A DNA stretch of 45,657 bases from Balneolaceae bacterium (lineage in GTDB: Bacteria; Bacteroidota; Rhodothermia; Balneolales; Balneolaceae), in contig PWLN01000129.1 of NCBI GenBank assembly GCA_003559375.1, positions 1 through 45,657 of the forward strand, written 5' to 3'. How positions within the stretch are numbered: position 1 is the first letter of the stretch; each line of letters begins with the position of its first letter. Below, piece by piece: positions 6,958 to 41,636 of the stretch. The notes below the pieces were generated by a model that did not search any database, had not been told where the DNA came from, and worked only from the letters and a program-made list of their open reading frames with translations. Both the position numbers and the translations under genes were made by a program.

Positions 6958-7605
6958 ATGCGCAATCAATTTGATTTTATTGCGATTGAAGGTGTTATCG
7001 GCGCAGGCAAAACAACCCTTGCCCAGCTCATCGCAGAACGCATGGGGGCCCGCCCGGTTTTGGAACAGTTTGAAGAAAATCCTTTTTTACCCAAATTTTA
7101 TCAGAACCGTAAACGTTATGCATTCCAGACACAGCTTGCATTTCTTGCGAGCCGTTTTAAACAACAAGAAAAAATGACCAATCGTGACCTGTTCGACAGG
7201 TTTGTGATTTCCGATTATATTTTTGAAAAAGATCGTATTTTTGCCCGCCTGAACCTCGATGATGACGAAATGTCTCTCTATGATACGATTTATAATATCA
7301 TGACGGGTATATCAGCAAAACCCGACCTGGTGATCTATCTTCAGAGTACAGTTGAGAGTCTGATGGAAAATATTGTAAATCGCGGCAGAGATTATGAAAG
7401 ACACATTACACCTGATTATCTGAAGGAACTGAGTGACGCTTATAATCATTTTTTTTATCACTATAATAAAGCTCCGTTGATCATTATAAACGCTACAAAT
7501 ATTGATTTTGTAAACAACGCTGATCATCTTGCGTATATTGAAGAACAGATCTTCGAACAACCCATAAGGAGCAATACACATATTCACATTATTCCAGGCT
7601 CATGA
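6958..7605 (+). CDS. deoxynucleoside kinase
   Basis: Phosphorylates deoxynucleosides for dNTP salvage, in the dGK/dCK/dAK fold. The 215-residue protein has a P-loop (EGVIGAGKTT, residues 11-20), the DRFVISDYIFEKDRIFA segment with the family's conserved acidic/arginine region, and a short LID-like RGRDYERHI near residue 140. Exact substrate preference (dG, dA or dC) cannot be read from the sequence. Its stop codon overlaps the next start as ATGA, so it is part of the folB-folK operon. Confidence 0.9.
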   Translation: MRNQFDFIAIEGVIGAGKTTLAQLIAERMGARPVLEQFEENPFLPKFYQNRKRYAFQTQLAFLASRFKQQEKMTNRDLFDRFVISDYIFEKDRIFARLNLDDDEMSLYDTIYNIMTGISAKPDLVIYLQSTVESLMENIVNRGRDYERHITPDYLKELSDAYNHFFYHYNKAPLIIINATNIDFVNNADHLAYIEEQIFEQPIRSNTHIHIIPGS

Positions 7606-7817
7606 TTCGCTGGCTATTAATTGCTTTATTTATTTTTATCATCATCAGGATTCTCCGAGGTCCAAAAAACAGGAAAAGGCCATCCATACGTTTTCATTTT
7701 GGCAATCTGAATAACCAAAACGGCCGATATGGGCAGCAGCGCAAAAGGCTGGATGACATCGAAGAAGCTGAATTTGAAGACATTACCGAAAAAGTTAAAA
7801 AAGAGAAAGATTCATGA
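7602..7817 (+). CDS. small single-pass membrane protein, DUF4834-like
   Basis: A 71-residue protein with one N-terminal membrane helix (WLLIALFIFIIIRIL, residues 4-18), then a basic stretch rich in Arg and Lys, and a strongly acidic tail with EEAEFEDITEKV. This layout resembles the short DUF4834-type proteins of Bacteroidota, but that is from memory. It overlaps both neighbours by four nucleotides (ATGA at each end), which supports it being translated. Confidence 0.75.
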   Translation: MIRWLLIALFIFIIIRILRGPKNRKRPSIRFHFGNLNNQNGRYGQQRKRLDDIEEAEFEDITEKVKKEKDS

Positions 7818-29394: not shown

Positions 29395-29548
29395 AGTCTT
29401 GAGTCCTGAGTCATGAGAAACGGATAATTGACCAAATAATTAAGTAGATAGCACAAACGTCTCGTTTGTGCTTATATTTAATATCGCAGATAGCGCAAAC
29501 GTCCCGTTTGTGCTACAATCTTGTTCTCAAGACTCAAGACTCAAGACT
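29395..29548. repeat. composite element: heptad ends around two REP hairpins
   Basis: The outer ends are 23-bp inverted repeats, 21 of 23 identical, each built of tandem GAGTCTT-type heptads (29395-29417 and 29526-29548). Inside are two hairpins with 3-nt loops: AGCACAAACG-TCT-CGTTTGTGCT (29450-29472) and AGCGCAAACG-TCC-CGTTTGTGCT (29492-29514), each preceded by AGAT. The element ends 7 nt before the hemL start codon and begins 10 nt after the htpX stop. Confidence 0.7.
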
Positions 29549-29555
29549 AATAACC

Positions 29556-30860
29556 ATGCTCTTAAACAAAAGCGAATACCTCTTTAAACAGGCACAACAA
29601 TTTATACCCGGCGGCGTCAATTCACCGGCACGGGCGTTCAAATCGGTAGGCGGCATTCCCGTTTTTTTCAAAAAAGCGAAAGGCTCCATCATAACCGATG
29701 AGGATGGAAATCAGTTTATCGATTATGTAGGATCGTGGGGGCCCATGATTCTCGGCCATGCTTTTCCGGCCGTAGTAAAAGCGGTTCAGGATGCCTCCTT
29801 CAACTCAACTTCATTTGGAGCGCCAACAGAACTGGAAATAAAGATGGCGGAACTGGTGCAGCAAATGGTGCCTAATGTGGAAAGGGTTCGAATGGTGAAT
29901 TCCGGTACGGAAGCCTGTATGAGTGCTATTCGTGTTGCGCGGGGGTACACCGGAAAAGAGAAAATCATCAAATTCGAAGGAAATTATCATGGCCATGCCG
30001 ATTCGTTTTTGATTCAGGCAGGAAGCGGTGCGCTTACCCTTGGCAAACCGAGCAGTCCCGGTGTGACCAAAGGTACAGCCAAAGATACCCTCAACGCCGA
30101 TTACAACGATCTAGATAGCGTTGAAAAGCTGCTTAAAAAAAATAAAGGGAAGGTTGCCGCAATCATACTTGAGCCTGTAGTTGGCAATATGGGCTGTATA
30201 CCACCTCTACCGGGATTTTTGGAAGGACTTCGAAAATTGTGTGATGAACATGAAGCTGTACTCATTTTTGATGAGGTGATGACCGGCTTCCGCCTTGCAC
30301 GCGGTGGTGCCCAGGAACGCTTTGATGTATGGGCCGATCTGGTCACATTCGGAAAAATCATCGGCGGCGGGTTGCCCGTGGGAGCGTTTGGAGGTAAAAA
30401 AGAGATCATGGATGTAATTGCGCCGGTTGGCCCGGTCTATCAGGCAGGTACACTATCGGGTAATCCTCTGGCAATGAGTGCCGGACTGGCTCAGCTGTCA
30501 ACATTGGAAAACCACCCTGAGTACTATGTTGAGCTTGAAGAAAAATCAGACTACCTGGCAAAAGGATTGCAACATGTGCTGAACCAACACGGTATTGATT
30601 ATCACATGAACCGGGAAGGCTCCATGATCAGTATTTTCTTTACCAAAGATAAAGTTACAGGCTTCAAAACAGCCAATACCACCGATCAGCAATTTTTCCG
30701 GCTCTTTTTCCACGAAATGCTTAAACGTGGCATCTATCTGCCACCTTCGCCCTTTGAAAGCTGGTTTTTAGCCACAACGCTTACAACAGCAATGCTCGAT
30801 AAAACACTGGAAGCTGCGGAAGATGCGCTGCCGATTGCTAAATCGTTGTACAAAAAATAA
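29556..30860 (+). CDS. hemL: glutamate-1-semialdehyde 2,1-aminomutase
   Basis: PLP enzyme making 5-aminolevulinate from glutamate-1-semialdehyde, in the C5 route to haem. The start at ATG 29556 ([20 protein letters not shown]) gives 434 residues, the usual length. An upstream frame would add 30 residues coded by the repeat element. Motifs seen are [20 protein letters not shown], the PLP aspartate in [11 protein letters not shown], and the Schiff-base lysine in [17 protein letters not shown]. The stop codon TAA lies inside the first base pairs of palindromic unit 1. Confidence 0.96.
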
Positions 30861-31077
30861 ACATGGTATGTTTATACGTACTCAGCACATGGCTCGACAT
30901 CGAAGATCAGATAAGGGGTGAACCGCTTCATATCATCAAATAAACATACCATGTTTGGGGTGTGGGGTCGTGAGAAGAGAAACATGGTATGTTTATACGT
31001 ATTCAGCACATGGCTCGACATTGAAGATCAGATAAGGGGTGAACCGCTTCATATCATCAAATAAACATACCATGTTT
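30859..31077. repeat. palindromic array A, two 98-bp units
   Basis: Unit 1 is 30859-30956 and unit 2 is 30980-31077, separated by a 23-nt G-rich spacer (repeat period 121 nt). Each unit has perfect 17-bp arms, AAACATGGTATGTTTAT and its reverse complement, around a 64-nt core. The two units differ at two positions only. Each arm is itself almost a palindrome (AAACAT-GGT-ATGTTT). The array starts in the hemL stop codon and fills the space between two converging 3' ends. The same family forms array B near 40.5 kb. Confidence 0.9.
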
Positions 31078-40495: not shown

Positions 40496-40838
40496 AAACA
40501 TGGTATTTCTATACGGGTCTGTTCACAGCGTCACTTCGTAAACGGGTTCGATGTTGAGCCAGGTGATGGGGAATGATAGAAATACCATGTTTGGGGCGAT
40601 GGGGGTATGTATCAGGGGAAACATGGTATGTTTATACGTATCCAGAACATAGCTCAACATCGAAGAACAGGTAAGGGGTGAACCGTTGCATGTCATCGAA
40701 TAAACATACCATGTTTGGGGGCGTGGGGGCGTGTCAAGAAAAACATGGTATGTTTATACGCACCCAGAACATAGCTCTACATCGAAGAACAGATAAGGAG
40801 TGAACCGTTGCATGACATGGGGTAAACATACCATGTTT
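40496..40838. repeat. palindromic array B, three 97-98-bp units
   Basis: Unit 3 is 40496-40592 (97 bp), unit 4 is 40619-40716 and unit 5 is 40741-40838 (98 bp each). Spacers of 26 and 24 nt are G-rich (GGGG...TGGGGG). Units 4 and 5 have the same arms as array A; unit 5 has one base changed at the inner end of its right arm. Unit 3 has different but perfectly matching 17-bp arms (AAACATGGTATTTCTAT), and its core is inverted relative to the others. The array lies upstream of the NHL lipoprotein and downstream of the FISUMP gene, both on the minus strand. Confidence 0.9.
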
Positions 40839-40862: not shown

Positions 40863-41636
40863 TTATCCTTTGATACATCGTACTGAAAAACCCTGTTTTT
40901 TATTCACATAAAACCTCAGTATATCTGCATCCTGGAAGTACAGGCTCCGGTAGATCGCTTCAGCCTGATTTTGTTCGGATGCAGTCCACCAATAACCGAA
41001 CCGGTTAATGTCAGAAAATGAACCGTCGGTGGGCACACGCCGGCCACCGGGGTTTCCGTTAAATCCGCTTTCATTGTTTGCCCCTGTATTTGGGCTTTCC
41101 CAGAAAGAACCCGATTTTAATTTACCCCCCGCATTCGCATCTGCACCTCTTTTCATGGAAGAATTGGCTTCCTGGGCGCTCATACCAAGATGCCTTTCAA
41201 GTGTTTTCCAGTCATCATCAGAAGGTACTTTCCACCCTTCAGGGCATATCCCTCGTGGATCTGAAACAGCGAACCAATTATAGAGTTTGCCAAAATTGAG
41301 ATCATTGGCTACAAGATGATTATATCTGCTCCATGCACCGGTATTCAAAGCTATCCAATCCGTTTCGCCTTGTACTTCAGGAATGGCATCACCGTTCCTG
41401 TACCGTGTAACGGCCAGATTTTCTGCCATCCATAACTGATTACCAATGCGAACAACAGGATAAGTATGCTGATCGATGTCCTGAATAGTCACCGGGTCAT
41501 CATCACCATTTACAGAAGTTGAGTTATCACTGCAGGATAACAACAAGAACAATACCAATATAAGTGCCAACATCACTGTTTTCCGAAAAGCGACTTTTTC
41601 ACTGTGGCTGATGTTTTCTGATATTTGTGAAATCAT
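40863..41636 (-). CDS. FISUMP-domain lipoprotein
   Basis: A 257-residue protein with a lipoprotein signal (LVLFLLLSC-S, Cys near 35). The mature domain matches the Fibrobacter succinogenes major paralogous (FISUMP) domain, with YPVVRIGNQLWMAENL, CPEGWKVPSDDDW near the centre, YWWTASE and the end GFSVRCIKG. The fold is thought to resemble the C-type-lectin/formylglycine-generating group, and the proteins are surface-exposed. The function is unknown. Its 3' end is 24 nt from palindromic unit 5. Confidence 0.9.
   Translation of the reverse strand: MISQISENISHSEKVAFRKTVMLALILVLFLLLSCSDNSTSVNGDDDPVTIQDIDQHTYPVVRIGNQLWMAENLAVTRYRNGDAIPEVQGETDWIALNTGAWSRYNHLVANDLNFGKLYNWFAVSDPRGICPEGWKVPSDDDWKTLERHLGMSAQEANSSMKRGADANAGGKLKSGSFWESPNTGANNESGFNGNPGGRRVPTDGSFSDINRFGYWWTASEQNQAEAIYRSLYFQDADILRFYVNKKQGFSVRCIKG

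Follow-up and report, generated by a model that had tools for sequence, protein, structure and literature searches.

Palindromic units in the window (the whole 45,657-nucleotide stretch of DNA analysed here) belong to a dispersed family that, in our assessment, very probably consists of REPIN-like non-autonomous mobile elements, with the RAYT (REP-associated tyrosine transposase) encoded at a unit-flanked locus as their likely driver. This assessment builds on what could be observed directly, i.e., the anatomy of the units, the identity of their arms, the length of their spacers, their extragenic position at the 3′ ends of genes, the lack of target duplications, the linkage to RAYT genes and the predicted fold of the RAYT. 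A sequence-only reading of the stretch at 40496–40838 had named a non-autonomous mobile element as one option, and this is now well supported, not least by the linkage to a specific RAYT clade. The kind of system is known; the ends of this family are unusual in being untagged.

Units and their matched arms

Five units were detected in the window, two in an array at 30859–31077 and three at 40496–40838. These and the neighboring features are as follows.

29466–30860, plus strand: class-III aminotransferase gene (Pfam), probably hemL, whose 3′ end bears the 30859–31077 array
30859–30956, plus strand: first unit of this array, arm type AAACATGGTATGTTT, starting within the stop codon (TAA) of the gene before it
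30980–31077, plus strand: second unit of this array, a near-identical tandem copy of the first
40496–40592, minus strand: unit 3, 97 bp, arm type AAACATGGTATTTCT, arms at 40496–40510 and 40578–40592, orientation opposite to units 4 and 5
40593–40618, no strand: G-rich linker of 26 bp between units 3 and 4
40619–40716, plus strand: unit 4, 98 bp, arm type AAACATGGTATGTTT, arms at 40619–40633 and 40702–40716
40717–40740, no strand: G-rich linker of 24 bp between units 4 and 5
40741–40838, plus strand: unit 5, 98 bp, arm type AAACATGGTATGTTT, arms at 40741–40755 and 40824–40838
40863–41636, minus strand: Fib_succ_major domain gene, with its stop codon 25 bp away from unit 5, on the outer side of the latter

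Arms of the ACATGGTAT type occur 10 times in the window, compared with 0.04 expected from shuffles. The matched arms that the sequence-only reading had described were confirmed, each unit at 40496–40838 carrying its arm type at both ends. The same reading considered the core of unit 3 to be inverted. A shared 13-mer is indeed inverted (TTCGATGTTGAGC at 40547–40559 in unit 3, GCTCAACATCGAA at 40652–40664 in unit 4, and a copy with one mismatch in unit 5), but this merely reflects unit orientation, because the arms are inverted repeats and an inverted core thus amounts to a reversed unit. The A-then-B arrangement of units was seen again on four other host contigs (C54, C124, C289 and C430), so the orientation of unit 3 is not a local flip.

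The host is a Rhodohalobacter species, and its genome (466 contigs, 4.19 Mb) contains about 34 complete units plus others cut by contig ends. They occur as single copies and as tandem clusters with linkers of about 23–27 bp, and arrays contain 1–5 units. One unit begins both C54 (L009, 1–127) and C289 (L016, 1–108), in opposite directions; the two contigs probably adjoin, which indicates that the assembly breaks at these repeats. On host contig C299, a unit (L017, 1054–2017) is interrupted by ~0.9 kb of DNA bounded by inverted CTGAGTTCGA-type ends, which looks like an insertion sequence that landed in the unit. Units were found in 20 of the 99 genomes searched. When about 85,000 species genomes were scanned, units turned up only in Rhodohalobacter (R. 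halophilus and R. sulfatireducens) and in MAGs, nearly all labelled Balneolaceae and a few labelled Chitinophagaceae or Bacteroidetes. A viral origin was rejected, as the scanned viral contigs gave no match, and nothing relevant was found in the literature on Rhodohalobacter palindromes.

The sequence-only reading had proposed inspecting copies in the host and related genomes, and we compared 184 distinct units from the genus Rhodohalobacter and one neighboring genus, collected by demanding ACATGGTAT in both arms. The ends are 15-bp inverted arms, ARACATGGTATKTYT, with 12 of the 15 positions nearly invariant. From position 16 inward, agreement between arms is at about chance level; the conserved arm is thus 15 bp rather than 17 bp, and the loss of an inner base in unit 5, to which attention had been drawn, is not meaningful. 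Positions 2, 12 and 14 are polymorphic, and each agrees between the two arms of a unit in 98–99%. All three agreed in 177 of the 184 units, versus 33 on average (maximum 51) when arms were re-dealt over all units and 98 expected (maximum 113) when they were re-dealt within genomes. At most loci the collection admitted only two letters at each of positions 12 and 14, and the units share descent, so the agreeing cases are not independent events. A mismatch-tolerant search, in which one-sided arm mismatches were a minority, showed that six units of genome G005 carry yet another end, AGACATTGTATTTTT, on both arms. It differs at position 7, which is otherwise fixed; paired change therefore extends to a position that does not vary elsewhere.

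Within single arms, positions 2 and 14 were combined as A-C (82), G-C (33), A-T (27) and G-T (23), and pairing at 2/14 and 4/12 was not kept, i.e., the mini-hairpin inside the arm is not maintained. Judging from the aligned units, the pairing that has been maintained is arm-to-arm and not that of the local mini-hairpin, in agreement with the earlier suggestion that the long hairpin is the maintained structure. The arm consensus contains no GTAG-type tag.

The spacer between the arms is about 67 bp and nearly free in sequence, and the total length is 96–98 bp in 158 of the 184 units. Positional information in the core amounted to 12–19 bits, compared with 7–8 in shuffles. Folding of the cores gave no conserved inner structure and nothing beyond a faint full-length palindrome register, and a conserved core RNA structure was rejected. 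Rfam returned no match for the units in the window, where only two tRNAs matched. The structured RNA that the sequence-only reading had also considered thus found no backing.

RAYT genes among the units

The RAYT family was found only through clustering of the ORFs near units. A RAYT ORF lies between units at loci L057, L041 and L058 and on host contig C289. The L057 gene, from R. sulfatireducens, is intact and occupies 7169–7768 on the minus strand. In the 99 genomes searched, close relatives were detected in G016, G024, G021, G046 and the host, along with a contig-end fragment in G002. The co-occurring RAYT gene that had been put forward as a check therefore exists: all five members of this group, plus the truncated G002 copy, are flanked by units, versus none of 43 other RAYT-like loci with an arm within 300 bp. 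The five unit-linked RAYTs form one clade (support 100/99). Their flanks hold complete two-armed units, with eleven around the gene in G046. The host gene (130–727 of C289, a different contig from the window) is split by a frameshift, so the host units may now be immobile, unless this is an assembly error.

The unit-linked RAYTs matched the NCBIfam profile REP_Tyr_transpos with E values of 2e-12 to 1.5e-15, at bit scores of 47–57 that lie below the curated cut-off of 80; they also scored below the Pfam cut-off. The REP_Tyr_transpos match was present in 36 of 36 aligned RAYT members, in which H65, H67 and Y128 are invariant columns and the HxH and YIHxNP motifs are invariant. Judging from its motif, Y128 is probably the catalytic Tyr. 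A sequence search against the PDB gave nothing significant, and the likeness emerged from fold comparison alone. The predicted structure (pLDDT 91.7) was most similar to 4er8, the E. coli TnpA-REP bound to a REP hairpin (Z 16.6, next match 9.5; 157 aligned residues, rmsd 2.8; Foldseek E 4e-7), and as modelled the RAYT has the TnpA-REP fold. The unit-linked clade has an HUH-Tyr distance of 63 residues and a YIHRNP motif, compared with distances of about 75–90 residues in other RAYTs of the genus.

Ordinary IS200-type Y1 transposases were rejected as the driver. The host PF01797 matches lack arms in their flanks, and copy numbers did not track unit numbers across 28 genomes (e.g., 11 units and no PF01797 match in G011, seven matches and no units in G019). 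No intact arms were found at 40 further Y1 or RAYT-like loci.

The unit-rich genomes G005 (97% complete, 20 contigs), G015, G020 and G011 gave no close RAYT, yet intact units persist in all four, and the arms are largely intact in G005, G015 and G020. Such persistence may reflect recent loss of the gene, a different RAYT that mobilizes the units, incompleteness of the assemblies, or a function for the host.

Two other RAYT loci carry repeats of their own. Around a sister-clade RAYT in G029 lie near-perfect hairpins of 33 nt whose loop is a single nucleotide, ACACATGCCAAGTTTT-C-AAAACCTGGCATGTGT (L246, 1420–1458, 1814–1852 and 2072–2110), as if two unit ends had been joined without the spacer. 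A different repeat, beginning AGCCACCTTCAAGCG, borders another RAYT of the genus in G005 (L253, 1065–1105 and 1864–1904), which suggests that several parallel RAYT-repeat systems exist in these genomes.

The units could also be MITEs of a DDE transposase that would cut their 15-bp terminal inverted repeats in double-stranded form, without any hairpin. The inverted ends are exact, the homology of some dispersed host arrays stops near the outer arms, and transposon terminal repeats likewise co-evolve with their enzyme. Against this, none of 128 arrays had a target duplication of at least 4 bp, and the unit-linked enzyme is a RAYT of the Y1/HUH type. No solitary arm pair surrounds a DDE gene, and the sole long pair in the host is the split unit on C299, which looks to have been divided by an insertion sequence. 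We therefore consider a DDE origin improbable. The search for an autonomous element bounded by distant arms found none.

Placement behind genes

No array lay inside an ORF among the 101 scored, i.e., the units are extragenic. Their median distance to a stop codon was 26 bp, and a quarter were at 11 bp or less. Gaps holding arrays were mostly tandem (n = 53) or convergent (n = 42) and seldom divergent (n = 6), compared with 111 tandem, 26 convergent and 53 divergent among the other gaps of the same loci. Behind sigma-factor-like genes, a unit occupies a common position in the host and in the relatives G011 and G020 (L019, L024, L110 and L133); the two host copies, on C362 and C462, look like duplicated loci.

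The hemL-like gene at 29466–30860 served as the site for a survey of orthologous loci. Units or remnants lie close behind its stop codon in the host and in G016, G005, G024, G009, G002, G008 and G012, with differing end types. A unit is located just downstream in G003, units or remnants lie further downstream in G018 and G023, and about nine genomes have neither at this site. REPIN-like units are thus found at one gene end in several species. The pattern fits old, matched but dispensable elements, and repeated insertion at a favored hemL 3′ site may be an alternative. Neither an excision product nor a clean empty site was seen, and orthologous loci of the 40496–40838 array were too few to reveal one of the latter.

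This placement bears on the possibility that the units serve the host as 3′-end elements (a terminator, an mRNA stabilizer or an RNA-processing hairpin), with selection on an RNA hairpin keeping the arms matched. The strong preference for sites behind stop codons is as expected, as are the arms behind the hemL-like orthologs, which stay matched in several species despite their different types, and the intact arms in genomes without a close RAYT. However, RNA pairing alone would not require the near invariance of 12 of the 15 arm positions, the core has no conserved structure, and the T-run of intrinsic terminators is missing. The units are also absent or decayed at most orthologous sites and reach only tens of copies per genome. 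A 3′-end signal, the third option of the sequence-only reading, accounts for location only, because orthologous genes are often without a unit, and we regard such a role as quite unlikely.

Still less credible are paired sites for a host DNA-binding protein (a nucleoid or segregation factor) spaced about 82 bp apart, for which the fixed spacing and the invariant double-strand motif would speak: independent sites would not need to match, yet arms match within units far more than in within-genome shuffles despite several arm types per genome, and the clade-specific RAYT linkage would be left unexplained.

Proposed mechanism and known systems

We favor mobile REPIN-like units, for which the following mechanism is proposed. 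Two identical 15-bp inverted ends and a spacer of ~67 bp would make up a unit, whose ends would pair in single-stranded DNA to form one long hairpin. The cognate RAYT, a Y1/HUH single-strand transposase with its gene embedded among units, would recognize the hairpin end, then cut and rejoin it; single-stranded DNA is thus its presumed substrate, and the RAYT probably cuts and moves the units. Its action would spread units and maintain them at extragenic sites where they do no harm, for the most part directly after stop codons. The need for the hairpin to form and be recognized would explain why the ends change together and why the spacer keeps its length but drifts in sequence.

More tentatively, this RAYT clade may recognize the long hairpin that the two arms of a unit form together and not a small tagged hairpin at each end, a proposal that we put forward with less than even confidence. 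If true, this would be a distinct recognition mode: covariation between two 15-nt ends that lie far apart, together with a loop of constant length (~67 nt), would take the place of the GTAG guide and the local stem. The untagged Bacteroidota-type RAYT clade gains a well-defined cognate repeat family. Its natural arm variants are nearly always matched, which makes RAYT recognition testable with a handful of oligonucleotides.

The units share with ERIC and MITE-type palindromes an intergenic palindromic element of about 100 bp without coding capacity, and differ in having a probable cognate Y1 transposase and in the conservation of only the 15-bp ends. In TIRtrons (TIRYT; Di Nocera 2013), RAYT genes are flanked by untagged repeat families (PMC3733652). 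There too, a RAYT-like gene lies between inverted repeats without GTAG, and these repeats also occur as a dispersed family whose members are often dimers or clusters, but TIRtrons have one arm per side, whereas whole two-armed units flank the RAYT here.

For the Bacteroidetes RAYT subclass 2.6 (RAYT group 5), surroundings with a missing GTAG tag and a weak local hairpin were reported (PMC6006769). The common features include Bacteroidetes-type hosts, the NHxH and YIHxNP motifs with an SS motif downstream, and atypical untagged structures that border the genes and recur at other places in the genome. Compared by description, the HUH-Tyr distance of 63 residues in the unit-linked clade differs from the reported median of 82 (PMC6006769), and the variable position of YIHxNP is Arg, unlike the YIH[QN]NP of subclass 2.6.

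REPINs are REP doublets forming hairpins, for which spacer length is critical and end changes are compensatory (Bertels & Rainey 2011; PMC3116915). The units resemble them in their two near-invariant inverted ends (~16 nt in REPINs), a variable spacer of conserved length and compensatory changes, and likewise are multicopy, extragenic, clustered and RAYT-linked. Unlike REPINs, which number in the hundreds, they occur in tens of copies, and their ends have neither a GTAG tag nor a maintained hairpin of their own, for which reason we class them as a REPIN-like variant rather than as canonical REPINs.
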